Below, one piece after another: positions 12,621 through 60,257 of a stretch of 64,000 bases of DNA. Each line of letters begins with the position of its first letter. Within the stretch, counting starts at the first letter, position 1. Where the stretch lies: the NCBI GenBank assembly GCA_964019135.1, contig OZ025258.1, positions 5,909,961 through 5,973,960 of the forward strand, read 5' to 3'. Below the pieces are notes generated by a model. That model did no database searches. It was not told the DNA's origin and saw only the letters and a list, made by a program, of their open reading frames with translations. The position numbers were made by a program, and so were the translations under genes. Source of the stretch: Arenicola marina. Taxonomy: Eukaryota > Annelida > Polychaeta > Arenicolidae.

Positions 12621-13646
12621 TTAAATTGGGAAACTCTTTGCGAAGTGTTTGAGGTCTCCGCATTGATAGCAACGCCTTGCTCTTGAATTAAGATAGGGAT
12701 GCTTATAATGTTCTATAGCTTTACTAGCACGGTTTACTTTCCGTGGGGCGTTAGGCCTAGTAAAGGCTGCCCGACCGTGTGCGTCCACGTACGTTTCAGC
12801 CCACATGATAACACTCTCAGTTGATTCTGCATCGTTTTCTTTGATGTACGTTAACATTTCCCTGCAACAACATGTCAAAAACTCCTCACGGATCAACAAG
12901 TCTGATAACCCATCGAAAGTTTCAGAGACTTTGGACACTTGTACGCAACGATCCAAATAGTATCGAAGTCTAGACCAAAACTGACTGGAGTCTTCGCCCT
13001 TCTCGGGCCTACTCGACCGCAACTGAATTCGAAACTGTTCTTTTGTTAACGAGAATCTTTTCATCCAGGACTCTTTGACCTTTATGTAATCTACAGAATC
13101 GTTAACATTCATGTAATACATAACATCCAAGGCTTTCCCTTTTAACAGTAAACTGAGGATGGTCGACCACTGATCGAAAGGCCATTTCTAATACTTGGCG
13201 ACTGTCTCGAAGCGAGATATATATGCATGGAAGCTATATCGATTCTCATCAAATTCGGGTAAACTGAATCTTGGGACCATCATTATCGGTGCGGAAAGGT
13301 TGCCTCCCGCCTCTTGATCCTGTTCAGCTTTAACCTGCACAGACTGGGATACTTCCGCCTGCAAGCGAATTACATCTAATTCAAACAATCGCTTTGCCTC
13401 ATTAAACTTAGTCCCGAGCTCTGCGTTGCGTCGCTGTGCCTCGCGTCGCTCAGCCGCTAGCTCAGCCTCGCGTCGCTCAGCTGCTAGCTCAGCCTCGCGT
13501 CGCTCAGCTGCTAGCTCAGCCTCGCGTCGCTCAGCCGCTAGCTCAGCTTTGCGTCGCTCAGCCGCTAGCTCAGCTTTGCGTCGCTCAGCCGCTAGCTCAG
13601 CTTTGCGTCGCTCAGCCGCTAGCTCAGCCTGGCGTCGCTCAGCCAC
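12621..13646 (-). pseudogene. Gypsy fossil, gag with coiled coil and CCHC knuckle
   Basis: Two minus-strand frames carry, in order, a run of the nonapeptide AERREAELA (coiled coil), the block MMVPRFSLPEFDENRYSF, a helical capsid-like segment (FRIQLRSSRPEKGEDSSQFW), and a knuckle beginning CYQCGDLKHFAKSF. That is the usual gag order in this Gypsy group. It is a broken fossil. Confidence 0.75.
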
Positions 13647-14430
13647 TAGCTCAGCCTCGCGTCGCTCAGCCGCTAACTCAGCTTTGCGTCGCTCAGCCGC
13701 TAGCTCAGCCTCGCGTCGTTCAGCCGCTAGCTCAGCCTCGCGTCGCTCAGCCGCTAGCTCAGCTTTGCGTAGCTCAGCCGCTAGCTCAGCCTCGCGTCGC
13801 TCCCGCCTCTTGATCCTGTTCAGCTTTAACCTGCACAGACTGGGATACTTCCGCCTGCAAGCGAATTACATCTAATTCAAACAATCGCTTTGCCTCATTA
13901 AACTTAGTCCCGAGCTCTGCGTTGCGTCGCTGTGCCTCGCGTCGCTCAGCCGCTAGCTCAGCCTCGCGTCGCTCAGCTGCTAGCTCAGCCTCGCGTCGCT
14001 CAGCTGCTAGCTCAGCTTTGCGTCGCTCAGCTGCTAGCTCAGCTTTGCGTCGCTCAGCCGCTAGCTCAGCCTCGCGTCGCTCAGCCGCTAGCTCAGCTTT
14101 GCGTCGCTCAGCCGCTAGCTCAGCTTTGCGTCGCTCAGCCGCTAGCTCAGCCTGGCGTCGCTCAGCCGCTAGCTCAGCCTCGCGTCGCTCAGCCGCTAAC
14201 TCAGCTTTGCGTCGCTCAGCCGCTAGCTCAGCCTCGCGTCGTTCAGCCGCTAGCTCAGCCTCGCGTCGCTCAGCCGCTAGCTCAGCTTTGCGTAGCTCAG
14301 CCGCTAGCTCAGCCTCGCGTCGTTCAGCCGCTAGCTCAGCCTCGCGTCGCTCAGCCGCTAGCTCAGCTTTGCGTCGCTCAGCCGCTAGCTCAGCCTCGCG
14401 TCGCTCAGCCGCTAGCTCAGCTTTGCGTGG
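13440..14430 (-). repeat. 27-bp gag minisatellite with a 496-bp segmental duplication
   Basis: Units such as GCCTCGCGTCGCTCAGCCGC + TAGCTCA (27 bp) repeat about 13 times up to 13,800. The whole block, including unique sequence from TCCCGCCTCTTGATCC at 13,305, is then repeated from 13,801 (offset 496), and a further few units follow to 14,430. On the minus strand each unit is one AERREAELA nonapeptide. On the plus strand the same array gives Ala/Ser/Arg-rich frames that are shadows. Confidence 0.9.
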
Positions 14431-14590
14431 CCCAGCCTCGGCTTCACGCTGAACTTAAGAATTCGCTACACACTCGGAAACAAAATAAATCAAAGCTTCG
14501 CCTTCGAGATTCGTTTCTCGCCCTAAAGCTATGAAAGATTTTCTTTCTTTCACCAAGCTAATACTAGCCATGCTTAATTTCGCACTTGCG

Positions 14591-16386: not shown

Positions 16387-16474
16387 TAGCCTGAATGTTC
16401 AGACGTTACAGTTTGACAGTCTGATGCTTACTGTAGTCAGACTGTCAAACTGTAACGTCTGAACATTCAGGCTA
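16387..16474. mobile_element. Hairpin MITE copy 1, 88 bp, 9-bp target duplication
   Basis: The element runs TAGCCTGAATGTTCAGACGT ... ACGTCTGAACATTCAGGCTA, two arms of about 36-40 bases around a short loop (TGATGCTTACTGTAGTCA). It is flanked by GGGCTAGCC at 16,378-16,386 and again at 16,475-16,483, an exact 9-bp target site duplication. A second copy lies at 29,791-29,885. It is non-coding. Nine-base duplications are typical of Mutator-like elements but also occur elsewhere. Confidence 0.92.
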
Positions 16475-23033: not shown

Positions 23034-23580
23034 TTTTCACCCTACGGGTGAAGCAATCTCGTTGATATTTTAAATGAAACGATAGAAGAGTATCAGGATT
23101 ATTGCTGTGAAAGAGATCTATGGGACTTGTGCAAAATTAAATTTAAAGAGTTTTCCATACATTATGGTATAATCCAAAGTAGAGTACGTAAAAATGCTGT
23201 GGAAAAGGTCGAGGAAGAGTTGAAGGTTGTCGAGAGAGACATAGTCCTTCATAGCTCTACCGACTTGATAGTCAAAAGAACCACACTAAAAGAGAATACG
23301 ATATGTTGATGTGTGATACCGCAAAACGAGCTCAGATACGTGCTAGGGCAGAATGGATAGAGCAAGGGGAGAAAAATACGTCTTATTTTGTTAATTTAGA
23401 AAAGTCTCGTCAAGCCTATAATAGTATAGACATGTTAGAATCATCGGACGGAATCGTATCACAAACAAAGATTGTATCCTGAAGGAATTACATCAATACT
23501 ATGATAGCATCTACAAAAGCAGGTCTCCTGACATTAACCATGTAAACAGTTATATTGACGCCGTAAAGGTTACAAATGTA

Positions 23581-24610
23581 TTGTCAAAGGAAGATCGCGA
23601 TCTCTGTGAAGGATATGTGTCAGTGCAGGAATGTTCAAATGCACTAATGACAATGAAACTAAACAAGTCTCCGGGAAACGACGGGCTTACCGTGGAGTTT
23701 TATCAAGCATTATGGCCATACATAAAAGATTTGTTAGTTGAATCATACAAGGAATGCTACGAGGAGGAAATGTTGTCGGTTTCACAACGCACGTCGCTTT
23801 TAACGCTCATTCACAAAGGCAACTCTCGTGGATTACTTAAAAACTACAGACCAATCACGCTATCTAATGTTCATTATAAGATCATGGCACAAGCACTGGC
23901 CCGGCGTCTTAAATCAGTCATATCTAGTATTATGAGCCCAGATCAAACTGGATATATACCAAAACGGTTTATAGGTTGCAATGTCCGTATGATGCAAGAC
24001 GTTATAGATTATGCAAATCGTCAACATGTCAGTGGTATTCTTCTTTTTGGACTTCGAGAAAACTCTTGACAGTTTAGAACGGGATTTTCTACACCAGTCG
24101 CTGAAAAAAATTGAGTTCGGAAAATCATTCATCCAATGGGTCCGACTGTATAAAGATTGATCTGCGCGGGTCAAACACAACGGCCACTTTTCAAATCCTG
24201 TTAACTTGTCTCGCGGTATTAAGCAGGGCTGTCCACTCTCCGCGATGCTGTTCGTCATAGCTATTGAATTTCTCGCCATTAATTTAAAAAAACAAAACAA
24301 AAAAGGTATAAATGGTTTCAAGGTTCGAATCAGACAGCAAGAGCACGAGCTAAAGGTATCCCAATATGCTGACGACTTGACACTACTCCTACAAAACGCC
24401 GAACAAATTACAGGGGTGCTCGATCAATTAAATGAATTTGAAAAAGTGGCAGGACTAAAACTAAACCTGGCAAAAACCATGTGTATGAATGTCGGTCCCA
24501 GCGGGAATAAAAAAGAGGTAACCCCCCCATGGTATAGCAATATTGAAAGAGCCTGTAAAGTGTCTAGACGTGTATATCGGAAAAAGATAGTGAAGAGTGT
24601 AATAATTTAA
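23581..24610 (+). pseudogene. LINE B reverse transcriptase
   Basis: Frame 23,581-24,069 carries LNKSPGNDGLTVEFYQALW, LKNYRPITLSNVHYKIMAQA and SPDQTGYIPKRFIG. Frame 24,206-24,610 carries SRGIKQGCPLSAMLF and the catalytic QYADDLTLLL, then LNEFEKVAGLKLNLAKT. These are RT blocks 1-2 and 4-6 of L1-type ORF2. The two frames are out of register between 24,069 and 24,206, where the F-x-x-D-A block would be, and an in-frame stop follows DFEKTL-like sequence. The enzyme copied the LINE RNA at its target; this copy is inactive. Confidence 0.85.
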
Positions 24611-27443: not shown

Positions 27444-27765
27444 AATATGGATAGGTGCTACCTAAAAAATGCGAGCCTATATTTATTAATTCAGATATTC
27501 CGAGGGGACACATCTAGATTAATATTCAAAATTAATCTCGCTTCGGCTTGCCATAAAGAATATCTTTGGCGGGATGACCCATGCCATGCACGTGCTTGTC
27601 ATATCATTCCGTTGCTTATGAACTCCCATTGTGACGTCATGTTTATAACATTTTGACGTCACAACTACTCACTATGACAGCAGCCGATGGGCGGCAAAGA
27701 ACTTGTGTTCTATAAATTCTTTGTGGGCGGTCACCAAGAACGCGCTGCTTGGCAACGGGAGCAAG

Positions 27766-28256
27766 ACAACTCCCCCCCCACCCGGACAGTCCCCCCCGGT
27801 CAGTTCCCCCCAGACAATTCCGCCCCCCCAGACAACCCCCCCCCCCCGATAATCCCCCCCCCCCCTCCCAGACAATCCCCCTAGGAAAATTCTCCGGGAC
27901 AACTCCCACCCAGACAACTCCCCCCCCCCCCCGGGCAATTCTCCCCTTGGACAAGTCCCCCCCGGACAACTTCCCCCGAGACAACTTCCCCCGGGACAAC
28001 TCCCCCCCGGACAACTCCCCCTCCCCCCGACTATTCCCCTCTAAACAATTTCCCCTAGGACAACTCCCCCACGATAATCCCCCCCCCCCACGGTTCCCCA
28101 CGAGTTCCTCCCTCCGGGCAATTGCCGCCCGAAAACCCTCCCCTCCATCCCCACCCCAGACAATTCCCCTCCGAGGCAATTGCCCCCCCGGCACCCGTCC
28201 CCACCCCAGACAATTCCCCTCTGAGCAATTGCCCCCGGACGATAACCCCCCCCCCC
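27766..28256 (+). repeat. C-rich array (CCCCCCGGACAACT-like units)
   Basis: Irregular 14-18 base units, CCCCCC(C)(G/A)GACAA(C/T)T(C/T), with runs of up to ten C. The complementary strand is strongly G-rich and could form G-quadruplexes. Confidence 0.85.
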
Positions 28257-28619
28257 CTGGAAATACATACTCACAAACGTCACCCCCACCCCCACACGAA
28301 AATACCCCCAAGACAGCCTCGATCCCCTGTTGGACAAACCCCCAGTCCGGGCCAATATTTTCAAATGCACCTTTTATTCCATCGAAACTTAACGAGACCT
28401 CAATGTTTTATTATCTTATCTTCCTGTAGTATTTACGCAGCAATCACCCCCTCAGACCTCCCACCCCGTGAGATACGCAGCTGCCATCAGCCTATGATGG
28501 CCCAGGGCTTATTGTGAGCTTGTTGAGACAGCACTTCTCAGTGTATATGAATGAATCTACAATGCAACCTAACTTGTTTTGGGACAGACAGCGCCACGCT
28601 CCTTCACACGATTGACCGG

Positions 28620-28870
28620 TGGGGATTGTCTTGGGGGGTGGGAGGGGGGGCGAGGCTTTTCTGTTTGGAGAGTCGTGGGTGGCAATGTGCCAAAAATGTT
28701 CTCGGGGTGGTTATCTGGGGGGGAATTGTCCGGGAGGGGGAGTAGTCCGGGTGGAAATTGTCGGGGGGGGGTGGGGAGTTGTCCGGGGGGGAAATGTCTG
28801 GGGGGGAATGGTCCGGGGGGGAAATGTCTGGGGGGGAATGGTCCGGGGGGGAAATTTCCGGGGGGGAGTT
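28620..28870 (+). repeat. G-rich array, inverted partner of the C-rich array
   Basis: Units read GGGGGGGAAATGTC(C/T), GGGGGGGAATGGTCC and GGGGGGGAGTTGTCC, the reverse complement of the C-rich words at 27,766-28,256. The spacing is about 15-16 bases. Confidence 0.85.
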
Positions 28871-29076: not shown

Positions 29077-29297
29077 ATAATGTGTCATACATCGTAGAAG
29101 ACTAGATTTAGCATGACGCGAGAGTAAGAATATGACGACGGTCAGTAACGGCCCGCCGCCAGGCACCGCCACCCACTGGACGACCCCGCATGGAACCCTT
29201 CACAAGGAGAGGCGACAAGACGCACCATTGGGAATCTTGTGTGGCATGAGTACTCCAGAACCATTGCACGAGATTCCATTACACTGACCGCCATTGA
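29077..29297 (+). repeat. Composite repeat, expanded copy, piece 3
   Basis: AATGTGTCATACAT through CCATTACACTGACCGCCATTGA matches 59,070-59,303, including CATGACGCGAGAGTAAGAAT, GACGACCCCGCATGGAACCC and TTGGGAATCTTGTGTGGC. It ends at the 9-bp CGCCATTGA (29,289-29,297), the left target duplication of the following element. Confidence 0.9.
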
Positions 29298-29435
29298 CAC
29301 TCTCTGCCTTCGACTCACTCCGCTAGGGCTCCATTATATCTCTGTTGTCGCCTACATTCGGCGCAATCTCCTTGAAGGAGTAGCGCTGGCATCACTATGA
29401 GTCAGTTGACCCCGGGTCAACTGAACTAGGCCAAC

Positions 29436-32400
29436 ATGGCGTCGCCACAGTTGGAAACACCTAAGAAAAGAAGTCAAATCGCCTGTTTTTCATGTTTAGG
29501 AACCAATATCTCCATTACTTTTGCACTAACTGGTAGAAAATGTAAAGAAGAAGACATTAATTCTAAATTATTTGCTTTATTACCTGATGACATTGTCAAA
29601 GACTTGTTGTCTGTCGAATCTGCGTCCTTATGCTGAAGTTGTTACGGAAGGTTAATTAGACAATGTTTATCAGTTTTACAGATCTCTTCGTGTTTCGGCT
29701 ACAAGTTATTTGGAAAAAAACGAGTCGTTGAGGCGATGCCACATGAGACCCGAAACCCCGAAGTCGACGATTGTGCTGCGAGCGCCATCCTAGCCTGAAT
29801 GTTCAGACGGTACAGTCTTGACTCTTCTTGTTCTGTTACAGTAAGCATCAGACTGCCAAACTGTAACGTCTGAACATTCAGGCTAGCGCCATCCAAGAAA
29901 AGTGTGGCAACGTCAATTCCACCTGCAACCCAAACTGGCCCGAAGTGAACATGGTGAACACACATATGGCAAACCTTGGTCAATGATGCCGTTCTGTCCC
30001 CACTGCCAGTGGATCTCATGACCATGGATATACCCTTCACGCAGAAAAGACTGGGAAGAAAGGCAAACAAGAAATCCTGGATCTATGCAATAAAAGAGTG
30101 TGGTCCTACCAACATCAGAAAGAAGGATTGTTGTCAGATTTGTTAGGAGAACTGCAGGTAAATTTGTATAATTACTCCCACTGAATATTAGCTGTAACAA
30201 TAATTTTCATTCTAAAATTCTGATCAATATTATATGATCCTGAAGTTTCTGACCTTCTCTTAAATTGTTGCTAATGTGATGTACGAATAGGCAAGATCGC
30301 CCAAAAGTCTTATTCACTACAGAATTTCTTATAGCTTAATACTGATTATATATTTAGAAATATATTACAAATATATGTTAAAACATTCTATGTCTATTTC
30401 AGGTACAGAGTGCTTTGATGACATCAAGGACAACTCATTTGTCATCAGTACTGATGAAATACAGACCTCTGTCAGAACTGGTGCAACATGCAGATACGAT
30501 AACAGAAGACATTGCCCAAGAAATGATCACTAGGTTTGTTGTTGGCATTTTAAGCTTATATGACTTATTGGAAAATATGTCTTAATTTCTGTATATATAT
30601 TGTGCAGCTTCTAGAGTATTGACAATGTGATGAGTGAAGGAAGGCGTCCTTGTATTAGCCAGAGACCTGCCCTGCCCGCTGAATGGGTGGCCAGTTTCAC
30701 TTTTGGCTGGCCAGTTTTTCAGGCAGGGGCCACTCAGCTGCTGTTTATGTGCTCTCAAAAAAACCTGTACATCAAAATGTCTAAATAAAAATCTTTGCAG
30801 GCACAATTTGATATGACAATGAGAACTACTGTTGTTTATTGAATTGTAAATTGCTACCTCATTGGCTAGTGCCAAGGTTTTTGTATACACTGAAATATGT
30901 TGCAGGCGAAAATTGTACAAATTATGGTTGGTAAACAGAATGCTGGCTAAACCCCGGAAGGTCTTATGAAGAAAGTGAATATCTATATCATGTACTAATA
31001 TAGATCTCTCCATAAAGTGTGTTAGAACCATGCACCAATCAATTGGACTGGCTTACTAGCATATACTCAAAAATGGCACAACTTACTACATACTGGATCA
31101 CATGGGATACAATACTTTCAAATTTTCTTTTGGAGACTTTTGAGGGCATAATTAACCTCTTTGACATATTAAGATCATTTGCAATCACAAGTTTACCAGA
31201 AACTGCATTATTAATATGATATAATGACTGTCATTTTACTAGTAACCAATATACCATATTCAGCAAATTGGTTGCGTAGAGCGTCAGTGTATAATATCAT
31301 TTATTAATGAGATTGCTTGACACTAGCATACAGTGACAATATTTTGCAAAATATGCACAGTAAATACAGTTGTATGTAATAAAATGGTTCCTTGCTATTT
31401 TTTTTGCTAAGGGTACCAGTTCTGTTCGATGTGATGTGTTGTGTAGCTCTACCTATAAGTGGTAAATTTAGTGAAGGACTACTGGCGGCTCTTGCCATGT
31501 GCTATAGCATATTGCTGAAGCAAAAGTATGACAATTTGTCAGCATACCACCGATTGGTTACTGCTGTTGTCACAAGGGGAGGCCTTGATGAAAGGGTACC
31601 ACTGCTTCATTTGCATGACTAAAGTTATCTGATAATATTCAATCAACTTTATTTTAGTACAAAAACAAGATTCCTTTTTACCATTTTTTTTTATGATTCA
31701 GATGATGGGTTGATTCTATTCACTTTTTTACATCTGGTAAATATGAAACAGAAAGTTGATATGTATGCACCTTGCATGAATTGTGACATCAAAATATAAA
31801 ATGATGCATTTCATTGAAATGCAAGGAAAGCTGGTGACACTGTGAATGTCATTATATATCAGCATTTGCCCAGTGAAAACTCCTAAAGTTGAAGATCAGG
31901 GTATGTGCTTATTCAAAGGGTTTCCATAAAATGTACATGCAGACTAAATAAACAATATATATCATGTTCCATAATGTTATTCCACTCTGGGAACCACATT
32001 CTTTTATACATAGCAGAATCACACTTCCCTCGCTAAATAGGGTGAATTTACCCTTTGAAAAAGTGTAGGACCATGTCATCAACATACTGAAATATTTATA
32101 ATCCCTGTCATTGCATGCATTTCTGGTTGACACTAACCATAAATTTTGTTATATGTTGTGTTGTTCCATTTTAAAGGCAAATGTTTTATTTTGCATTAGC
32201 CAAAATCAGTCTTTTGACAGGAAAATAGCATTTCTGTTCTTATGTTTGTCACTCTTCTATGCCAATTTCAATGCATGTATTTACTAATGCAAGGATTATG
32301 TGATATGAAATGTTTTGTCAAGCACCATTCTTTCTGGTTCCTTTTTGACATTGTTTTCAACGCCAGCTAAGGTAGCTTGCATTAGTAATTTTTGAATATA

Positions 32401-35153
32401 TAGCCTCTCTATTGTCTTGTTTAATGTATGCAGATTGATACCACATCTTAAGTCAACCGTATTGCAGATGTAACATACATCATTGTAGGTGCTGAAGAAA
32501 TTTTGGACTGCCTTTTGCATATATTAAATATTTCTTCTGTCTTGCTTTTTTTCACGAGGGTATGTGGTATCTGACACAATTGTGAACAGATTGACTACAA
32601 CATTGCGTTTGACCATATGCTATAAATATTTATGAAATTTCTCTTACAAACCAGGTTGAATCACTTGGGAGTGGCATTATCTACCACTGCGCGGATAAAG
32701 CTACAAGATGCAGCTCGTTGTGGACAATTTAAGGAAGAACCCATTGATAAAAGTGACAGGTAAGTGTTGAGGGACGAGGGGCTGGGCCTGTACAGGGAAT
32801 GTCGTCTCATTTTTTATCTGTCTGTTTTCTACGTGGTTTATCAGTGTTATCAATATAATACATGTATTGCTCGAGAGGAATAAATATTTCATTTTGTCTT
32901 CAGGTGACAACTTGGATGTATATGTGAAAACATCACACCTGACGACGGAACGACGGAATAGAGATCTGCACATGTTTACGTCAAACATAATCTTCAGTCG
33001 CGTCGCAAACATGGATGTGAGCAATGCGACTCCCAAGGTGAATGTTGCCCATCTGAATGCTGTGTCTTGCTGCTTGAAAACAGCGTTGGGCGTGACCGTC
33101 TGTGTACAGCGTACGGAACACTCGTGGGAAGGAGTATGTCGTCAATGCCAGGGTTATCCTTCTGGGAAAAGCTCATCCCATAGCACATACCTCATCAGCA
33201 TGCGGAGCAGATGGCCAGAACATCCACTGTCTTCAATTTGCCGCTCGAGTTCCGCAACGAAGCCAAGCACGAGGATTGCCTTGCAATTATGGATAGCTAT
33301 GACAACCAGTTGATGAAACTGTACAATGCTGCTTTTGGTAAGTATTTTTTAAGCAGCCTTAAATATCTTTCCATGTTCTGATTTATGTTTTTATCTTGTA
33401 GTTGCCAATCGCATAACATGTTAACCACAAGTTTCTCGGTTTGGTCAGTTTCACAGAGAAGGAAAATCGGGCCTAATGTGCCGATTGAAGTGGTCTGATC
33501 CGCGTTGAAAATGAATTTAAAGTACAGTACCATCTTGCTATTATAATATTATTTGTGTATACATGTACTATAGAAAGTAGGAACCCAGGTATGGAGCCAT
33601 GTGGGACCTCATTGCACCATAGACTTTTAGAAACTGTCGTGTGGTTAACAGAAGCTACATTGAGAAATACTTTTACTTAGGAAACATCGAACTGCTTCAC
33701 AAACTCAAGGTCCCGATTGGAGGTGACCAGTTGACACGTGTTCGCCTGCAAGAGGCCAAGAACTTCCGCACCTTGTCCTTGACGCCACAAGCCCGATTCG
33801 ACGACTTGCATCCCATTGTGTGCGAAATGTGGCACCGCAAACGTAAGTAAGTTGTCACTCCATTCTTGGTTAAGAGAAATATATATTTATGTATTCCAGT
33901 CTGTCTTGTATGAGCCTTTTGTCATCATATGATGTCCCAATACGTACAAACCTCATACATTTAATTGTGTTTACGTAACATCCAAGACCAGGAGAGCAAA
34001 TAGTATTGACTGGCACATGATGACTGGTATATAACTTGAAATGACACCAACATTTCATAACAATGACACATAATCTTCTTCTTCTGTATACAGAAATGCT
34101 ACAAGATGTTCTTCACGCCTGTGTTGTCGCAGGGCACTCTTTATGACATGAAGACAATTCAGCATCAAAGCGACGTCAACGGGAAAGTCAAAGGGAGGTT
34201 TCGCCCTCACTATGAGTTCTTGATGGCCATCGGTGAGGGTTTGCTGACGGAGCAAGTAATGGAGTTCTTCGAGATGGAAGACAATGCTGATGAACCCAGA
34301 CATGCGCTGTTTGGAAACTGGCAAGCACTCTCGCCTACTGAACAAGCTGACGCTTTGCAGCGAATTTTGAGTGACTGCCTCGAATACTATGGATATGGAA
34401 GGGTCACCAAGGAAGTGCCAGGGCCCATGACTTCGGCAACGCGGTACGTTGAACGGCAGACTGTCCTGGGGCGTCCCACGGAAGGCTACCTAGTTGTCCA
34501 ATCCGACTGCGAAGTAAATCTACCAGAACCGGATCGCCTGTTCAACTACTGCATGAAACTGTCTCTTCAGTGATGGAAGTGGACGATACCGCGACACTCA
34601 CACTCTCATTTGAGCAAGTACCTGATAGAAAACATTGACTATGTGCTCAAAACTGAACACTTACTGTCACCTCTACAACGACTGCGAGTCCTCGAAGGCT
34701 CGTTTGTCAACTCCAAAGGAGGGCAGGGAAAGAATGTGGAAGCTGATCTTGTCCAAGAGCATTCTGTGGGAAACAGAAAGAAACTGATCAAGCCCCTCGG
34801 TGCCAACAAGAGCGTACGAGCCATGACGCTATCAACGATATATGTGACAGAGTGGATAAAAGCCTGAACATCCGTGCCAAAATTTCCAGACATACGAAGC
34901 CAATCGATGACAAGACCAAGGAGCAACTTTACACAGTATACAGGAGTTTGCGCCCGTTCAGGTACACGCCTGAAAGAAGTACAATGACATTGATGCTTCA
35001 CCAATCCTGCCGCGTGATGTTGAATCCATGAAGCGGAGAATTAATCAGATCATTACGAGACTAACTCAAGGACTGGCCATCCCAGCAGACGACGATGATG
35101 ACACGGATAATGATGGCGAATCTGATGATGACGCTGACTTGCCGCATCTGTGA
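29436..35153 (+). pseudogene. DUF6589 gene, seven exons, decayed
   Basis: Exons: 29,436-30,157 (hairpin MITE inside), 30,403-30,533, 31,412-31,595, 32,655-32,759, 32,904-33,337, 33,681-33,842 and 34,094-35,153; most have GT/AG borders and matching phases. Exon 1 opens with a Cys pair (IACFSCLGT) and a second pair interrupted by TGA at 29,633-29,635, a possible zinc finger. Later blocks are diagnostic: GDNLDVYVKTSH (exon 5), KVPIGGDQLTRVRLQEAKNF (exon 6), GTLYDMKTIQH and EGSFVNSKGGQGKNVEADL (exon 7), and an acidic tail, DDDDDTDNDGESDDDADL. Breaks include an extra G at the exon 3 donor, a frame change near 33,050, TAG in LIP-HIPH near 33,180, TGA at 34,571 and a frame change near 34,815. The family is multi-copy in invertebrates and fungi; function unproven, probably transposase. 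Confidence 0.8.
29791..29885. mobile_element. Hairpin MITE copy 2, 95 bp, inside DUF6589 exon 1
   Basis: The same TAGCCTGAATGTTCAGACG ... CGTCTGAACATTCAGGCTA hairpin as at 16,387, with a longer loop (GACTCTTCTTGTTCTG). It is flanked by GCGCCATCC at 29,782-29,790 and 29,886-29,894, an exact 9-bp duplication. It interrupts the coding exon, so it inserted after the host transposon was in place, or travelled with it. Confidence 0.93.
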
Positions 35154-35232
35154 GGATCCAACGTCACTATCATATCTGTGTACTACACGTATATATGAAT
35201 GTGTACATGTTCACTGTTATGACATTTTCGCG

Positions 35233-35238
35233 AATAAA
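35233..35238 (+). terminator. Polyadenylation signal of the DUF6589 gene
   Basis: AATAAA lies 80 bases after the stop codon at 35,151-35,153, in AT-rich context. Confidence 0.55.
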
Positions 35239-35689
35239 GAAGTGAAAGAACCAAAGCAAGAAAGATTTGATCAAGGTTTGCCTTATTTCATATCGATATG
35301 TAGACGTGGTGAAGATTTTATCTGCTCAGATTTTATGATATTGTATTTGCTATACATTTGCTATACATAGTTATATGGGTATCAAATATAATTAGTAAAA
35401 CCGTTACTTATTTCGTAGGGCTCATTTTATATGCTCCATGTTGTCAAACAGCTTGTATGGAAAGAAGCGAAAGCCGTATCTCTAACCCGGTAACAGGATC
35501 GTGGTGGCGCCGCCAAGCGGTGAGGGTTATTACATCGCTGTAGCCAGGTGTGCACGGGCGTGTCCTGCTGCCTGAACGAAGGCCGCTGGCGAACCCTTCC
35601 GGGTGCGCACCGAATTTTGTTCTGAGCTGCTTGATTCCACAGGTTTGTACCGTAGTATTGCTGCCACCCTGCACTCCCAGGGTGCGCTG

Positions 35690-36320
35690 GGGTTACGCGT
35701 GTGCTGGGCGTGGGGTGTCGTGGGGGGTGGGAGGAACTTATTCTGATCCGATTTTGTTCAAATATTTTTTTAACGATTTATTTTTGCTTGTGGGTTATTT
35801 CAGTCTAAAGGTTCTCAGTCTAAAGGTTCTGGGGGGGAGGGGCGTAGGGGGGGGGGGGCACATTCTGAGGAATTGTTTAGAGTAATTTTTTTTACCGATT
35901 TTTTTGGCTTGTGGGTTATTTTAGTCTACAGGTTCGCTTGCTTGACATCACCCAACCCCTAGGGGGCATGGGAGGAGGGGGGCAGGGGCGTAGGGGAGGG
36001 GTGGGGGCGGGGGGGGGGGGGGTTAGGGGGGTTAGGTTACAGAGGGATTTGTTATTTTATTTTAATAATATATTTTTTTGACGATTTCTTGTTCTATTGT
36101 TTTTTGAGTGTAAAGGTTTGCTTCATTGACACCACCTGACCGCTAAGAGGCGTGAGATGGGGGCGGGTAACGGCGGAGGGGTGGCGGAAGTAGGGACGTA
36201 GAGGGGAGGGGGTATGGCAGGCTGAGTTTTTTTTTCGATTTTTATAAATCAATTTTGTTAACGATTTCTTTTGCTTGCGGGTTACTTTGTTCTTTAAGTT
36301 AGGTTGTGCTAATGTCAAGC
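35690..36320 (+). repeat. G-rich degenerate tandem repeat between the two genes
   Basis: A unit of roughly 130-180 bases, built from CTTGTGGGTTATTTTAGTCT, AAAGGTT, and a G-rich stretch such as GGGGCGTAGGGGGGG, recurs near 35,765, 35,890, 36,090 and 36,270. Longest G runs are at 35,840-35,858 and 36,001-36,022. It lies in the gap between the convergent genes. Confidence 0.65.
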
Positions 36321-37092
36321 CGTAACTTGAATTAAGCTTACATGCGTTTATAGTTCCTCTCATATACATGAACATTGGAGCTACAAACTCATTTCTTTTA
36401 TATTGCTTTTGCTTTGAGACGCTAAAATTACTGTTTGTATAGTAACTGTGCATGGGTACATAATGCTCTGTCCCCTCTTCTAGTACATAATGTTAGACTC
36501 TTCCGTGGGCTTACTTCTTTTAACCAATGAAAACACAGTAATATGACCTTCACCTTACGACGTCATAAAAAAGGCGGCTGTCAACACCCTTTCGTCTGCT
36601 ATACTTTATGCTAGAGACTATCGTGTTGTGCTGTTATTAAACAAGATACACTTTCAAGTAAGTTAAAATCACAAGGGTCTTGTGTAATGGAGCAAGTAAA
36701 TATATAAATCGTGGCTGCTAATGGTGCACAGACAAAAATATTTACGAAATCGAGGCGGCAGATATTAAACGCGCCGACTATAGGATGCATTTTTAGGTTG
36801 CATGCCATAGCCTAGGCTGGAAAAAGAGTGTTAAACGTGGGATGACACAGTTGAACAGTAATTTAACGGAGATACTCTAAGCATTAATGAACATGTCTTT
36901 GGCTACATTTCACATCCATGAGTCTGATCAGACTAACAATGCCTAATTTACAGATCTTCACACACGCAGTTTACACGGGTTGAGCTGTCAAATAGTCAGT
37001 TGGCATTGACAGTTCGCCTGTCAAAACATAAACAAACATGGTTATGGACTAATCTTAATTGTTCGCCGAAACCTCATAGAAAAGACACTTAC

Positions 37093-37226
37093 CTCTCTTT
37101 GTCCCTGGGGAATTGAAAGAAGGAAATATCTCCTCTTGTCCCTTTACAATTGTGGCAATTCCATGCCGCACAATTTGTGCCACGACCGGACTTCCAGCGG
37201 CTACAACATGTACAACCTGCGTCCAT
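37093..37226 (-). CDS. THAP-type zinc-finger first exon
   Basis: From ATG at 37,226 the minus strand reads MDAGCTCCSRWKSGRGT, then NCAAWNCHNCKGTRGDISFF and QFPRDKER, followed directly by the donor GTAAGT. C-x4-C spacing, S-F-x-x-F-P and a basic residue before the splice site match the first half of a THAP domain, the C2CH DNA-binding finger of P-element-type transposases and related proteins. The exon leaves in phase 2. A second exon with the Trp and Cys-x-x-His half was not found down to 36,500, so the gene is partial or its next exon is distant. It lies 330 bases downstream of the helicase gene on the same strand and may be a third gene of the same element. Confidence 0.55.
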
Positions 37227-37560
37227 TTTACCGTCTGCACCGAGTTGACCGAGCGCTGATTAACCCTCCCCGCTAGACGGCGCGCGCGCATGTCTTGTTA
37301 CCGTTTTACGTCGCGCTTTCGCTTCTTGTTCTATTAATTCTTTGATGCTGTGGACCTTATTGACCTGTCTGGCTATGTCGCACACGACTGCACCACCAGT
37401 TATCAAGCCTCTAAAAATACTTATATAAAGATCTCTCAAGCATAAGTGAAGAATATGTTTATATTCATTTCTATTCATACTGTAAACAGCATATGACGAA
37501 TATGGGCAGTCTTATAGCCATAGGCACTGGTGCAATCCCAAAGTAATGCCATTTTCAGTT

Positions 37561-39261
37561 ATTGCAAGGTGGAATGACCCGTAATTACATCAGCTGGCAC
37601 ACAACATGGACAGGTATTCTTACAAAATGCACAACATTTACAACCTATCACGCCGGCATCCTTTACAAAGCCAAAGTTCGACAACATGCTGTTTCGATAA
37701 CATGATGTTGTCATCGTTACTGTAGTAAAGAGTAGCAGAACTTTTCTGCCCTCTTCTTCCGGCACGTCCTATTTCTTTCATATACTGAGAAAAATTCCTT
37801 GGAGGACGGGCATGTATTATCTGTGTAACATTCTCTGGATCAAAGCCTAGACCAGCAATAGAAGTATTAAGAACAAGTCTTATGCGTGGGTTAGGCTTCT
37901 TCAATTCCTTGACAGTGGTTGACATGACATAAGGGTCTTGTCCAGAACAAAGAGCACTGTAACATGCTGAATCTATACCTGGATGGTTAAATAAAGTATT
38001 CCAGTACATGAGAGCTTCACTCATATAGTAGACAGGTAAAAACAAAAGTGTCACCGGATAATCTTGCCTCTTGTTATGAAGTGCATGACATTGTTCTTGA
38101 AAAATATCCTCGTATGCCTTCAGAGCATCTGTTGTTGATGATTTCTCCACCTTGTCCAGATATATGTTTCACTTGTCAGGATTTACTTCAATGACATGAT
38201 GTGACTGTATACCCAATATTTTGGGCAATCTGATTTTCTGATCTATTGTTACTTCCACTAACGGCAACAAAAGGTACCGCTGGAAAGAATGCTTTCAATG
38301 TATCCTACTTCTTGAATGGACTCCTGAAATCTTCTCCCCTGCAATAAAAGATTTTATATACAAATATTTGTTGTTCTTCACATGTACCAGTAACAACATA
38401 AGAGTACTTCTCTAATACTTGGATACATGATAAAACAGCCACATATTTTGATAACTGGCATGTCAACCTGTACAATGAATATACATTATAATATTGAGAG
38501 GCGACGGATGGAGGGATGGGTGACAGGAATGAAGTCCTATGCCAGTAGAGAGGCACCTGCGACAGCTAGTTCCCTCAGACCCTTCGCTTACAGACTGACC
38601 ATTTTATATCGAAGAGCAGGTTCTATTGTTAAATATTTTCCAAATAATAATTGTATTTATGGCCATAATATAAATGTATTAGTCCATACAAAATATTACC
38701 GGGATATATATGAAGAACATTGCACTGCTTCAATAAGAACTGCAATAATTTTTTTCTCATCTATAACTTACACTTGGTAAAAAAAAAGATGCGCCTACCA
38801 GATTGCCCGATTTGTTTTTTTGTGGGGGGTAATGACCTACCTCCTCAAAATCAAACGGTCTTCAATTTAAATATTCAATTACTTATCACTTACCATTGCT
38901 CTATGAGGTGACATTCATCAATGATGACAGCGACAACATGTGAAGTAAATTCTTTGTCATCCAATAGTTGTCTGCCTGCTTCAGTATTTAAGATTGCTTC
39001 TGGGTGGCATAAACCAACTGAGAATTCTCCTTTACAGACACCTTCAAGCGAAGCAGTGGTCACCAATAATTCTGGTAATATATGAAAAAGAAAACTTTTT
39101 CCGTATCCCACTGGAAGATTCACGACCAAGTCGCCTCTTTGGCGGGCCAAATATTCAAGAGCCTCCAGCTGTTTTTCTTTTGAGACAATTTTGTCATCGT
39201 AATATATGAGATTGATCAGTCGACATAATCAACGAACTTGTATTCTGTAACGCAGGACCAT
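37561..39261 (-). pseudogene. RecQ-like superfamily II DNA helicase, two exons, decayed
   Basis: Exon 38,894-39,261 encodes EALEYLARQRGDLVVNLPVG, then YGKS (Walker A), GLCHPEAIL, and VIIDECHLIEQ (DECH box). Exon 37,561-38,338 restores the split Trp codon (W-GEDFRSPFKK) and carries RLVLNTSIAGLGFDPENV (motif V), YMKEIGRAGRRGQ (motif VI) and a C-terminal Cys-rich end, CCAFCKNTCPCC. The intron has GTAAGT and TTGCAG borders. Defects: about 60 residues between Walker A and DECH, including motif Ia, are missing; there are stops at 38,305-38,307 (TAG) and 38,169-38,171 (TGA), a stop just after the start region, and frame changes near 38,250 and 37,690. It would unwind DNA with ATP; in the element it presumably served transposition. 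A cellular RecQ is unlikely given the location and divergence. Confidence 0.8.
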
Positions 39262-39565
39262 GCAGCGGAAGTAAACAAACCGCTTTTCTTGTGGCGGAAT
39301 ATTTGTGACTGCCAAACTACGCACTTATTACGTATGCAAACGAAAGAGTACCGTATGATTAACCCACCATAATATTCTTACAAAGCGCCTGATGATGTGG
39401 ATTTGCTCATCAAAGCTAGGTTATTGCACATTATTGTTCATTTGGTAACCTTTAATATATTCATTTCTGGCTATTTGACCGTTTTTCAAGAATCTTGAAA
39501 TTTGCACCCGGCCGACAGCAGCGGTAAAAGCGGAGCCGGCGTAGCGCCACCGTGCGGGGAGCTTG

Positions 39566-40351
39566 CGCCATTGAGTTTACTTGTGGTACAGACTGTAAAC
39601 TATGTGCAGCGCCATCTATTGCAGTACTGAAGGATTGGATGTGGCCATTATTTCGGTTTTACTTGATCTGTATTAATCTTTTACTTAGTAATACAAATCG
39701 TAAAAACTTGCTCTAGAAAAATTTGTGTTTGACGAGATGAGTTGGCGGTAAGCCTGAAACACCCCAACCCCGCCTCTCTTCGCCACCCACTTCCTCATGC
39801 ATTGCGTGCTGTGGTCTTTCCACCATAACATCGCGAGACCACGAGGCGCATCACGCTGTCGCGTAAAGGGTGACAAGAGCAGTTCAAAGGTCAGTTCGAG
39901 AGACAAAGTCTGAGGTATCTGTAGACTAACGGAAAAAATAATAGCACAAATAGGAATCCTGGTATAAAGGATGTTAACACTGGACAGGTGTCCATAGTAT
40001 TATAAAATAAGGTATCTTCGTGGTTGGTCTGTGTCTTTCGCAAAGTCATCTGGTTCATTTGCCCATTGTGCTTCTGAAATAGCGACCATGAGGGTCAACA
40101 AATCGACCATTATCACCAATTGTAAGCAATATATTAATAATACGTTATACATTATCTCATATTGGACTCTTGACGAAAGCAGCTTGTAGACGAGTGCAAT
40201 CTAATTGCACACCACGACCACTGGCTGATCCTGACCTCTTACATACATATTTACCTGCCGAACAGCCAGCCCCCGCGCCACTCCCTGCTCCCGTCCTCCA
40301 ATCCTTACCCCCACCGCACAGCGAAATATCGCCTGACGACAAACGGAAATA
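39566..40351 (+). repeat. Composite repeat, expanded copy, piece 4
   Basis: It begins with the right 9-bp duplication CGCCATTGA and matches 59,304-60,150: GTACAGACTGTAAA, GGATTGGATGTGGCCATTA, AACCACGAGGCGCATC-type words, GGTATCTTCGTGGTTGG, and TGACCTCTTACATACATATT. From TGCTCCC at 40,286 the match continues in reverse complement relative to the compact copy, until the LINE begins. Confidence 0.85.
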
Positions 40352-46272: not shown

Positions 46273-46824
46273 TTAGGCCAGCTGATTGAGATGTCCGGCC
46301 GCGAGAATCACGGGACAATGCGAGGACAAAAGGAGAGAAAACTGTTCAGTTTCAGATAGGCACATTGAGAGAAAATGTTTCTGCTCCGGTGAAAGAGAGA
46401 AACATGCGAAAAACAAATAATTTCGGCGACACAAATATGTATATCTGCCCCCTAGTGCTCCCTGCCCCCCTCTCCCCAGCCGCCCGCCGCTCGCCGACCC
46501 ACGCTCGGGCCCGGACTCCATTAGAAGCCACAGGCTTGAGTCGCAACTTGTACGGGATCGGGAACTTTGTACCCCGATAGCGATAACTTGTGCGCGTAAC
46601 GAGCATAGATCGTGCTAACCGGATAAACTACTTCATCTGACACATTTGATTCTTTAACCTTCTAGCTCTAGCTATGTTATTTTGTTCGATAATCGAGATT
46701 TTAGCTGCTCGGTCCTATGATTCCCATGTTAAAGAGCCTGAGGTTTACATTTTTCTGCCCTACGCACGCACGCGCATGCGCGACCTACTTCGATTTGTTG
46801 CCAAACATCGCAGCCCCGAATTGA
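46273..46824. other. Unassigned stretch between LINE C and the satellite
   Basis: It does not match the compact composite copy and has no coding signature. It may be a further insertion. Confidence 0.35.
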
Positions 46825-47722
46825 ATTTGATACAATCTTGTCGAATGTAGACTCCATTACCATAGTCATGTCAGCGGCGTCCCCAGTCCGCCGCGCAGTC
46901 TGACCCAGCATCATAGGCCAGTAACTGTGGGATTGGACTACACCCCCTCCCACCCCCGCTGATCCAACACCATCGGCCAGTAACTGTGGGATTGGACTAC
47001 ACCCCCTCCTACCCCCGCTGATCCAACACCAGAGGCCAGTAACTGTGGGATTGGACTACACCCCCTCCCACCCCCGCTGATCCAACACCAGAGGCCAGTA
47101 ACTGTGGGATTGGACTACACCCCCTCCCACCCCCGCTGATCCAACACCAGAGGCCAGTAACTGTGGGATTGGACTACACCCCCTCCCACCCCCGCTGATC
47201 CAACACCAGAGGCCAGTAACTGTGGGATTATACTACACCCCCTCCCACCCCCGCTGATCCAACACCAGAGGCCAGTAACTGTGGGATAGGACCACACCCC
47301 CTCCCACCCCCGCTGATCCAACACCAGTGGCCAGTAACTGTGGGATTGGACTACACCCCCTCCCACCCCCGCTGATCCAACACCAGAGGCCAGTAACTGT
47401 GGGATAGGACTACACCCCCAACCCTTCGCCCCCACGCCCCCATCCCCCGACCCCACGCCCACCCAGCGACACGGTCATTTATCTGGCGGCCATCGCTTGG
47501 TTGGAGAACGTGATGTCAGGGGTAAAATACAATCATTACTATCATATGGTTATCTGAATTGAGGAGTGTTTTATCGGGGTCTGGTCTTGTCCAGTAGAAC
47601 TGTGTGTGTGTCCAAGCCTTGGAATGTCTGTCGCCACTCACAGCAACAAGATATGGGTGTGGCAAAGTCCCGAATGTCTGATGTCATCCGAAGTTATATT
47701 GCAGGGTATAGTTGTCTAGTAT
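46825..47722 (+). repeat. Composite repeat, expanded copy, piece 5 (with satellite)
   Basis: AATTGAATTTGATACAATCTTG, GTCCCCAGTCCGCCGCGCAG, the 59-bp satellite and then GACCCCACGCCCACCCAGCG, TATCTGGCGGCCATCGCTTGG through GCAGGGTATAGTTGTCT match 60,160-61,540 in order. Confidence 0.88.
46903..47416 (+). repeat. 59-bp satellite array, about 8-9 units
   Basis: The unit is CCAACACCAGAGGCCAGTAA, CTGTGGGATTGGACTACACC, CCCTCCCACCCCCGCTGAT. Adjacent units are nearly identical, with a recurrent GATTGG/GATAGG variant. The same array in the compact copy has about 16 units. Confidence 0.95.
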
Positions 47723-51429: not shown

Positions 51430-54055
51430 TTGTCAACGCAGACGTATTAGGTAAACTAGACAGAGACCTATGTGCCGATCCTAACAGTAACTATGAGATC
51501 CTTGAGGATATATTTACACATGCTAGGGATATATATTTACCAAGCAAGACAGTACAATTTAATAAGAGAAAACACAAAAAGGCAAACTGGATCACCACTG
51601 GTATTATTAAGTCAATAGCATTTAAGGACAAACTTTATAAAAAACTTAAAATGACAGCGCCAGCCTCCTGTCAATACGATACTCTCAAAACCAATTTTAA
51701 GACGTATGAAACCCTACTAAACATAGCATTCGGTTGGCCAAAAGATCGTATTATCATCATGCTTTCGAAAAATGTAAAGGGGATATCAAGGCAACTTGGA
51801 AAGCAATAAGATCCGTTATTAATAGGTCAAACCGAAAGGACAAATTCCCTGAACTCTTTAATATTAATGGAAAGCCAACATCTGACCGTTCGGCTATAGC
51901 AAATGGCTTTAATGATTTTCTTAGCACCATTGGTACTAAGCTTGCCAGTAAAATCAATCAGGACCCAAACCAAAGTTATACTAGCTATTTAGGCGATCCC
52001 TGTAAAAACAAAGTGGTGTTTACTTTAATTGACCCTAATGTCACTAATAAAATAATTGATGAGCTGAAACCTAAGGCTAGTTCTGGGCATGATGACATGT
52101 CAATGAAAATGATGGAACTATTAAAAGTAGATTTAAGCAAGCCAATTACCCACATCATTAACCAATCAATTTCTACTGGTATATTTCCGGATAAATTAAA
52201 ACTTGCAAAAGTAGTGCCGGTTTTTAAGAAGGGGGAAATATCTAATATAGATAACTATAGGCCAATTTCAATTTTGCCAGCCATATCTAAGGTTTTTGAA
52301 AAAGTTATCTATGATCAGATATATGGACACCTTGATCACGAAACCCTGTTTAATAGTGGTCAGTATGGTTTCCGGAAAAAACATTCAACCCAATTAGCTA
52401 CACTGGAATTAATTGATAGAACCATACATAAACTAGATAAAGGGGAGATTCCGATAAACATCTATCTTGATTTATCAAAAGCCTTTGACACCATTAATCA
52501 CGACATACTATTAACTAAACTAAAGCATTATGGGGTTTCCGGGCTGGCGCTCAAGCTGCTACAAAATTATCTTCACAATCGCAAACAGTACGTAAGCATA
52601 GACAACGTTCAATCCCAAGAAGTTCTGATATCCCGAGGAGTACCGCAGGGGTCAAAACTTGGCCCTCTTCTATTTATAATATATATAAACGACATATCAA
52701 GAGCGAGTTCAATATTTAGTGCAATTATTTACGCTGACGATACAACCCTTTCTAGCACACTAAGTACACTAGCGCCAAAAAGTAATGTACGCCAAAGTAG
52801 TGAAGTGTTAAACCACGAACTGTCTCTAGTAAGCAATTCGCTTAAACTTAACCAACTATCTCTAAACATTAAAAAGACCAAATTTATGTTATTTTATATG
52901 CCACAAAAGCGGGTAACGATACCGGAACTTTATATTGAAAATACTAAGCTGGAATGCGTTGACGACTTTGATTTTCTCGGATTGACCCTACATAAACATC
53001 TGAAATGGTCCAGTCACTGTGATAAAATTGCTTTTAAAATATCTAAGGTAGTTGGAGTCATGCAACATCTAAAATATACCCTTCCTCGACATATTCTGTG
53101 AACCATTTATAACTCGCTCATTTTGCCTCACTTGCACTACTGCATATTAGCCTGGGGATACAAAAGTGACCGGTTGATCAAAATCCAGAAAAAAGCTATT
53201 CGCATCATCACAAAGAGTCACTATATTGCGCACACTGAACCATTATTTAAGCGTTTGAATCTTCTTAAAATAGTCGACATTCATGAGTTACAGACATTGA
53301 AGTTTTATTATAGGCTGCTGCATGATGATCTCCCTGCATATTTTATTACCTTTTTCCATTTTCCCCGTATATTAGACCAACATGAGTATAACACCAGATG
53401 TAAGCACAATATAATTATACCCAGAACCAGGAACAAATTTGCAGAGCATTGCATCCGCTATTACTTGACTCATTTAATAAACCGAACTTCAGAAAACATT
53501 TTAACGAAGATATTTACCCATTCAATAGCGGGCTACTCTACATATGTAAAAAATAGACTTGTTGACAGGTACTGTGTTGACTGTTTCAAAGTAAATTGTT
53601 ATGTCTGCCGCAAAAAATTATAGAGATATTGCGTTCTATCTAATCCTCCAAATTATTATTTTTATATCATATGTTCTATTGAATTCTAACGGTGTCTATC
53701 GATAATTGTATTGTTTATAAAAGCATTGTATTGTTCCCCGCTTTATTTTTCTTTTTTTTCTTTTTTTTTCCTTTGAGGTGGCCACCATGCCAGCGATTAT
53801 GTCATAATGGTGGTCTCCTCGGCCAGGGATTGTATTTTGTTCGTTTTTGCTGTATGTTATATTGTATTGTTGTTTTCCTGGTCGAAATAAATGATTATTC
53901 TCTCTCTCTTATGTAACAATCAAGTTCATTCTTTAAAAAGTGTCTGATAAGCCCAAAGAGAGCTGGGTACTTTTTTCCTGTTATATTGTTCTTTTCATCT
54001 TGTAACGTACCATGTCACTATAATAAATAAACATCTATCTATCGATCTACCTATC
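51430..54055 (+). mobile_element. LINE D, CR1/L2-type, near-complete RT, 5'-truncated
   Basis: The copy starts in the linker after the endonuclease (DPNSNYEILEDIF near 51,470) and includes the whole RT, the C-terminal domain and a 3' UTR with an ATCTATCT tail (to about 54,055). It is the best-preserved coding element in the window, with one frame shift near 51,735 and one in-frame stop. It is the same family as LINE A at the left edge. Its state suggests it is younger than LINEs B, C and E. Confidence 0.88.
51734..53623 (+). pseudogene. LINE D reverse transcriptase and C-terminal domain
   Basis: RT blocks in order: ELKPKASSGHDDMSMKM, IDNYRPISILPAISKVFEK, QYGFRKKHSTQLATLELI, NIYLDLSKAFDTINHDILL, SRGVPQGSKLGPLLFIIYIN, YADDTTLSSTLS, and LSLNIKKTKFMLF with DFLGLTLHK. 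TGA at 53,099-53,101 interrupts HIL-TIYNSLILPHLHY; CGA to TGA, a CpG-type change, would explain it. The frame continues with the C-terminal domain (LIKIQKKAIRIITKSHY, HEYNTRCKHNIIIPRT) to the stop at 53,621. Upstream frame 51,440-51,730 (WITTGIIKSIAFKDKLYKK) is one base out of register. Confidence 0.92.
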
Positions 54056-59022: not shown

Positions 59023-60257
59023 ATTTAGTAGTAGAAAAGTTACTAGCAGTTGAAGGGGGAGACATTTTAATGTGTCATACATTGGAGGAGACTAGATTTA
59101 GGATGACGCGAGAGTAAGAATATGACGACGGTCAGTAAATCACAGATCCCAAGGGCCCGCCGCCAGGTATCGCCACCGGCTGGACGACCCCGCATGGAAC
59201 CCTTCACAAGGGGAGGCGACAAAACGTCACCATTGGGAATCTTGTGTGGCGTGAGTTCTCCATACCATTGCACGATATTCCATTACACTCTGACCGCCAT
59301 TGTAGAGTTTACTTGCGGTACAGACTGTAAAGGATGTGCAGCGCCACCTATTGCAGTATGAAGGATTGGATGTGGCCATTATTTCGGTTTTACTTGATCT
59401 GTATTAATCTTTTACTTATTAATACAAATCGTTAAAACGGGCTCTAGAAAAAATTGTGTTGGCTGAGATAAGTTGGCGGAAAGCCTGAAGCACCCCCGCC
59501 CCCCCCCCCCCCACCCCGCTTTTTCTCGCCACCCGCTTCCTCCCGTATAGCGTGCTGTGGTCTTTGCAGGCGAAACCACGAGGCGCATCTCATTGTCACG
59601 TGATCAGTGACAAGAGAAGTTCAAAAGTCAGTTCGAGCGACAAAGTCTGAGTTATCTGTAGACTAACGGGAAAAATAACAGCACAAATAGGAATCCTGTT
59701 AAAAAGGGTGTTAACATTGGTGTCCATGGTATTATAAAATAAGGTATCTTCGTGGTTGGCCTGTGTCCTTAACACAGTCTGCGTCATTTGCCCATTTTGC
59801 TTCTGAAATAGCGATCACAAGCGCCAACAAATCGACCATTATCCCCATATTGGACACTTGACGAAAGCAGCTTGTAGACGAGTGCAATCTAATAGTACAC
59901 CACGATCACTGGCTGATCCTGACCTCTTACATACATATTTACCTGCCGAACAACCAGCCCCCGCGCCACCCCCTGCTCCCGACGTGATGATTAATATCAC
60001 CTGTTATAATGGAGTTTTACGGTCATGTTGCTGAGACAGACGCTGTCGCCATGGAACCAACTCCCACCCTGGCCTTGCCTCTTCTGGCGGAGCTGTTTCC
60101 GTTTGTCGTCAGGCGATATTTCGCTGTGCGATGGGGGTAAGGAATGGAGTATGGGAGCATCACAGCACCGTCAGAATTGAATCTTATACAATCTTGTCGA
60201 ATGCAGACTCCATCACCACAGAGTGTGTCGACGGCGTCCCCAGTCCGCCGCGCAGTC

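Follow-up and report, generated by a model that had tools for sequence, protein, structure and literature searches.

A decayed, probably AcademH-type DNA transposon in Arenicola marina suggests a transposase function for DUF6589

Introduction

What is the 10.3 kb segment that interrupts a dispersed repeat in the annelid Arenicola marina, and what brings together the two genes that it carries, one of the family DUF6589 and one resembling RecQ helicases? The segment lies in a window of 64,000 nucleotides, the whole stretch of DNA analysed here (assembly GCA_964019135.1, contig OZ025258.1, positions 5,909,961 to 5,973,960 of the forward strand; coordinates below count from the first base of this window). 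A sequence-only reading of the window had proposed that the segment is a DNA transposon of the AcademH type and that the DUF6589 protein is its transposase. We conclude that the 10,268-bp segment is very likely an old, inactivated AcademH-type DNA transposon inserted in the repeat, with DUF6589 as its probable DDE transposase.

DUF6589 proteins and RecQ-like helicases are numerous in invertebrates and fungi. AcademH (Kojima, 2020, as relayed by papers citing it) is a lineage of Academ in animals and fungi that makes duplications of 9 or 10 bp and carries a helicase, while AcademX makes duplications of 3 or 4 bp and carries a nuclease, the length of the duplication being linked to which of the two enzymes is carried (PMC10045372). 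A 'RecQ Helicase in Academ' is mentioned elsewhere (PMC3627910), and recognisable domains, e.g. PF00270 and recQ_fam (CDD:129701), were found in 1,568 of 1,938 fungal Academ copies, owing to which such copies are often annotated as host genes (PMC6416283). Academ elements of bivalves average 5,565 bp in length in a curated set of 100 (PMC10294476). RecQ helicases can also be carried by Kolobok lineages (KolobokH), which make TTAA duplications (PMC9587614). In the literature that we searched, neither the name DUF6589 nor the label proposed here, Academ-type transposase, was found; a search for PF20231 returned nothing relevant, and one for IPR046496 returned nothing.

Results

The segment is a discrete insertion with exact edges

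Alignment of the sequences on either side of the segment with the rest of the window showed that the left flank (29078-29296) is 86% identical to 59068-59302 and the right flank (39566-40293) 81% identical to 59295-59981. The two matches share 8 bp of this uninterrupted relative of the host repeat, which is what a target duplication would lead one to expect, and when the flanks are joined the repeat is restored through the junction, save for one 3-bp indel, where the empty copy is three bases longer. It should be noted that the 'empty' site is another copy of the host repeat elsewhere in the window; it does not represent this locus as seen in a second individual. The insert thus delimited splits the repeat at 29297/39566 and is bordered by a perfect 9-bp duplication, CGCCATTGA, which occurs on the forward strand of the window at these two places only and on the reverse strand at none. 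Among 53,714 positions in the window, a 9-mer is shared with the position 10,277 bp away in a single case, namely the CGCCATTGA pair. Two claims of the sequence-only reading were thereby borne out, that the repeat is continuous near 59 kb yet split here by 10.27 kb and that a 9-bp duplication borders the insert. The 10.3 kb segment is confirmed as a real, discrete insertion into a dispersed repeat.

The ends of the insert resemble a decayed inverted repeat

A search for a short, perfect terminal inverted repeat gave none, the two ends agreeing at 8 of their 15 outermost bases. Longer gapped local alignments of the ends scored at a level that 8 of 1000 shuffles reached for 60 nt and 17 of 1000 for 100 nt, and the score at 60 nt was reached by 28 of 4978 random pairs of sites from the window. 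The 60-nt local alignment stops at base 53 on both sides. Aligned end to end over 53 bp, the arms score 11, a value reached by one of 5000 shuffles and by none of the 4978 random pairs; when GC-matched window sites were compared with the true ends, it was reached by one of 15,250 against the right end and by none of 3,139 against the left, these odds being flattering as the length of 53 was picked after the local alignment had been seen. Each end starts with CA, and each arm closes with TGTCG. We take the ends, with moderate confidence, for the decayed remains of a terminal inverted repeat about 53 bp long.

The DUF6589 gene is a probable transposase gene

The larger of the two genes lies on the forward strand, with its ATG at 29436, 138 bp from the left end. 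Its read-through protein, with X placed at the lesions, matches PF20231 with 68.4 bits (E 6.4e-19) over positions 52-376 of the 410 of the profile. When the pieces of the gene were scanned singly, two of seven matched, namely 34574-34864 (E 4.9e-9) and 33623-33844 (E 3.3e-5, under the cut-off). The N-terminal segment, CFSC...C(stop)SC, is zinc-finger-like, its second half being broken by a stop. The gene is interrupted by stops at 29634 and 33181, by shifts near 29650 and at 33100-33140, by a nested miniature inverted-repeat transposable element (MITE) and, at 34571-34606, by a stop combined with a shift or deletion.

The weight that the Pfam model gives to individual residues was read from alanine changes in two exons of the gene. 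In the piece with the DLVQEH motif, where all seven acidic residues were changed, the E cost 8.3 bits and the D 6.9 bits, the other five costing 0.5 to 2.6 bits; the H cost 4.9 bits, and a single control change of N to A cost 0.6 bits. In the piece with the GGDQLT motif, where five of the six acidic residues were changed, the D of the motif cost 6.7 bits, the largest loss of nine changes, followed by W (5.0), G (4.7), Q (3.8) and R (3.2), while the four other acidic positions ranged from a loss of 1.9 to a gain of 1.4 bits. A strongly weighted D, a long spacer and then a strongly weighted D-x3-E form the pattern that a DDE enzyme carrying an insertion domain should have. The first catalytic D is presumably that of a GDN motif at about 32903-32911. 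A six-frame Pfam scan of the insert, described below, listed no other transposase domain, so that DUF6589 remains, by elimination, the one candidate. Judged by this elimination and by the strongly weighted acidic residues, the DUF6589 protein is most likely the transposase of the element. For the family as a whole, we consider it likely that Pfam DUF6589 represents the DDE transposase of AcademH-like transposons.

The second gene encodes a RecQ-family helicase

On the opposite strand a helicase reading starts at 39228, about 340 bp from the right end, and runs to about 37562. Among NCBIfam models it matches recQ_fam best (TIGR00614; E 1.5e-30, 106.5 bits), which we take, by its name, to be the same family as the recQ_fam recorded in fungal Academ copies; PF00270 (DEAD) is matched as well. 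GYGKS, DECH and GRAGRRG can be read in the gene and are presumably its helicase motifs. The piece 37641-38168 finds RecQ helicases as its best PDB matches (4tmu, E 4.9e-7). Among the best 60 of its 129 PDB matches, the first 18 are DNA helicases, of which 17 are named RecQ, Q1, Q5 or WRN and one, 1oyw, is named only ATP-dependent DNA helicase; the RNA helicase eIF4A comes next (E 3.9e-6). The piece 38893-39228 matches Pfam DEAD with an E of 1.4e-5, just under the cut-off.

This gene is likewise damaged, by a stop at 38169 and a change of frame near 38200-38300, and about 50 residues of its DEAD domain are missing (residues 50 to 74 of the protein stand against 33 to 108 of the profile). As the two genes read, neither the DUF6589 protein nor the helicase can be made whole by this copy. 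The claim of the sequence-only reading that two spliced genes converge, each starting near one end, therefore holds with the qualification that both are broken.

Remaining content of the insert

When the whole insert was scanned against Pfam in six frames, DUF6589 and Helicase_C alone were above the cut-off; DEAD and a half-A-TPR repeat were listed below it. Among the matches up to an E of 1 there was no reverse transcriptase, integrase, other transposase or nuclease domain. The scan is of limited sensitivity, as a weak match to THAP was absent from its list. That match concerns what may be the first exon of a THAP zinc-finger gene (Table 1), for which no second exon was found in three frames read by eye. 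No second copy of the element was found in the 64-kb window by tblastn with seven pieces of it. Between the two genes, 35700-36300 is G-rich with diverged repeats, two of which are 121 bp apart.

The MITE nested in the DUF6589 gene (TAGCCTGAAT...ATTCAGGCTA) has a second copy at 16387-16474, and each copy is flanked by a perfect 9-bp duplication of its own, GCGCCATCC for the nested copy and GGGCTAGCC for the second. The ends of the MITE are unlike those of the large element, the length of the duplication is equal (9 bp), and one MITE target (GCGCCAT) is similar to the sequence that flanks the large element on the right.

Table 1. Features of the insertion locus, in window coordinates
Feature	Position	Strand	Evidence
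Inserted element, 10,268 bp	29298-39565		Duplication and split repeat
Left target-site duplication, CGCCATTGA	29289-29297		Identical to 39566-39574
Right target-site duplication, CGCCATTGA	39566-39574		Identity to left copy; overlap of repeat alignments on empty copy
Left part of split host repeat	29078-29297	+	86% to 59068-59302
Right part of split host repeat	39566-40293	+	81% to 59295-59981
Uninterrupted relative of host repeat (empty site)	59068-59981	+	Alignment to both flanks
Left arm of putative decayed terminal inverted repeat (about 53 bp), CACTCTC...TGTTGTCG	29298-29350	+	Global alignment to right arm
Right arm of putative decayed terminal inverted repeat (about 53 bp), CAAGCTC...TGCTGTCG, read on - strand	39513-39565	-	Global alignment to left arm
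Decayed spliced DUF6589 gene, probable transposase	29436-35153	+	Read-through protein matches PF20231
Exon with GGDQLT motif (candidate second catalytic D)	33680-33843	+	D to A costs 6.7 bits
Stretch with DLVQEH motif (candidate catalytic E and strongly weighted D)	34606-34840	+	E to A costs 8.3, D to A 6.9 bits
Decayed RecQ-family superfamily 2 helicase gene, Cys-rich end	37562-39228	-	TIGR00614 match; GYGKS, DECH, GRAGRRG
Possible first exon of THAP zinc-finger gene, ends at GT donor	37092-37226	-	Pfam THAP E 0.009, under cut-off
Nested palindromic MITE in DUF6589 gene, own 9-bp duplication GCGCCATCC	29791-29885		Second copy at 16387-16474

Discussion

Probable assignment to AcademH

The insert combines a 9-bp duplication, an empty relative of its target and a RecQ-family helicase, and it is because this combination fits the published traits of Academ and AcademH that we read it as AcademH-type. 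The proposal that it is a discrete inserted DNA element of this type is well supported by these three features and, more weakly, by the inverted ends.

Several other classes of transposon were considered and rejected. MuDR/MULE elements make duplications of 9-11 bp, and no MULE transposase domain was listed in the six-frame scan. Helitrons make no target duplication and carry a Rep/PIF1 helicase; here we find a 9-bp duplication and a RecQ-family helicase, and no match to PIF1 or Helitron_like_N was listed. AcademX belongs to the same superfamily as AcademH, yet its 3-4 bp duplications and its nuclease are both unlike what is seen in the element, in which the scan listed no nuclease and the duplication is 9 bp long. 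KolobokH is rejected as the duplication is CGCCATTGA and not TTAA (PMC9587614).

Compared with the known systems, the element is like AcademH, as far as the available descriptions go, in having a helicase gene and a duplication within the range of 9-10 bp, perfect at 9 bp; it differs from AcademH in that this copy is inactive and perhaps in that the helicase lies on the strand opposite to DUF6589. As in fungal Academ, a recQ_fam/PF00270 helicase lies inside the element, although the fungal elements have fungal hosts and are likened here by description only (PMC6416283). A RecQ helicase within a DNA transposon is likewise a feature of KolobokH and of Kolobok-1_CCri, the helicase of the latter being on the complementary strand (PMC9587614).

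A number of observations weigh against this assignment or against the evidence used for it. The link to Academ is made through the length of the duplication and the type of helicase and not through a comparison of transposases; the identification of DUF6589 as the transposase of an AcademH-type element, drawn as it is from elimination and the weights of acidic residues, is to this extent partly supported. One copy only was seen in the window, and at 10.3 kb it is about twice as long as the mean of the 100 curated bivalve Academ elements (PMC10294476). The inverted ends are weak: ungapped, 24 of their 53 bases are identical, and the local scores of the outermost 20 and 40 bp are at chance level, being reached by 718 and 543 of 1000 shuffles, respectively. 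The candidate first D, in GDN, falls outside the Pfam match. With 106.5 bits the helicase stays below the curated recQ_fam cut-off of 219.8, which may well be unsurprising for a broken copy, and the piece with its Walker A motif (38893-39228), taken alone, found no PDB chain at an E of up to 1. The THAP-like exon between the two genes is not explained by the AcademH model.

Alternative explanations

One rival is a helicase-bearing DNA transposon outside Academ, in which DUF6589 would constitute a transposase superfamily of its own that makes 9-bp duplications and has likewise recruited a RecQ helicase. It gains from the absence of transposase homology from the argument for Academ, and from the Kolobok lineages, in which RecQ helicases also occur (PMC9587614), so that such recruitment is not unique to Academ. 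The same Kolobok lineages, however, make TTAA duplications, and both the 9-bp duplication and the RecQ-family helicase fit the descriptions of Academ that were available; we therefore regard a non-Academ origin as unlikely. One may also suppose that DUF6589 is an accessory or passenger protein, the true transposase having been lost from a decayed copy or being supplied in trans. The decay of this copy, the roughly 2 kb between the two genes in which no gene was recognised and the hint of a further gene in the THAP-like exon speak in its favour. Set against them are the position of DUF6589 as the larger gene, starting at one end of the element, the strongly weighted acidic residues in its model, as expected of a DDE enzyme, and the lack of any other transposase domain listed in six frames, even if the scan that failed to list one also missed the weak THAP match. 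A passenger role for DUF6589 accordingly appears very improbable to us.

We give hardly any credence to the idea that the segment is host DNA with two ordinary genes and that the compact copy of the repeat arose by deletion or rearrangement. The window does hold just one occupied and one empty copy, but a perfect 9-bp duplication and inverted ends lie exactly, to the base, at the break, and joining the flanks restores the repeat; the base-exact break, the duplication and the restored repeat lead us to reject a deletion as the origin of the compact copy.

A model for transposition

Starting from the duplication and the gene content that are observed, we infer the following roles for the two enzymes of the AcademH-type element. 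The DUF6589 protein, as a DDE-type transposase, would bind the ends of the element via the zinc-finger-like segment at its N terminus. Catalysis would depend on the D of GDN, the D of GGDQLT and the E of DLxxEH, in this order, with a long, probably helical insertion preceding the third. After cutting or nicking the ends, the protein would transfer them to target strands at points 9 bp apart, and the 9-bp duplication would result from repair of the gaps. The RecQ-like helicase may serve to unwind either the ends or the product of strand transfer, ahead of repair or replication, a step that is the least certain part of the mechanism.

Searches for relatives

The collections scanned for relatives were of viruses and prokaryotes and say nothing on recurrence in animals. 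No relative was confirmed among viral contigs searched with one DUF6589 exon and one helicase exon, and tblastn of plasmids with one exon gave no match. A DLxxEH-type pattern occurred in one viral contig (locus L001) and four prokaryotic contigs, and a GGDQLT-type pattern in seven viral contigs. We judged all 12 loci to be chance matches, L002-L012 from a best tblastn E of 0.015 with six pieces of the window and L001 solely by reading its frames, which look like those of a phage structural protein. A search for PF20231 in one virus record and 14 control genomes found none, which does not show its absence.

Significance

The class of element to which we assign the insert is already described, and the gain is an annotation link, that of DUF6589 with an Academ-type transposase, not a new kind of element. 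This link offers a function for a family that is named but unexplained, and it provides a simple way of finding and bounding DUF6589 elements, by a nearby RecQ-like gene and a duplication of 9-10 bp. It could also help to clean up annotation, as Academ copies are often labelled as host genes, which has been described for fungi (PMC6416283). If the link is true, DUF6589 proteins and many of the neighbouring RecQ-like helicases annotated as host genes in invertebrates and fungi would form one mobile lineage, and a RecQ helicase would work in transposition in the lineage of DUF6589 elements.

Other features of the window

Outside the insert the window contains further repeats and retroelement-like readings. 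Two tandem arrays, at 46806-47419 and 60257-61188, have a common unit with a spacing of about 59 bp, and at 27700-28870 C-rich and G-rich arrays with a unit of about 15 bp lie in facing orientation and form an imperfect inverted pair. A long reading like the reverse transcriptase of a long interspersed nuclear element, recognised by eye and with one stop, spans 51710-53623, and another such reading lies at 23425-24069. Also by eye, a retrotransposon gag-like zinc-knuckle reading (12621-13187) adjoins a tandemly repeated, coiled-coil-like reading (AELAAERR...) at 13188-14454 on the reverse strand.

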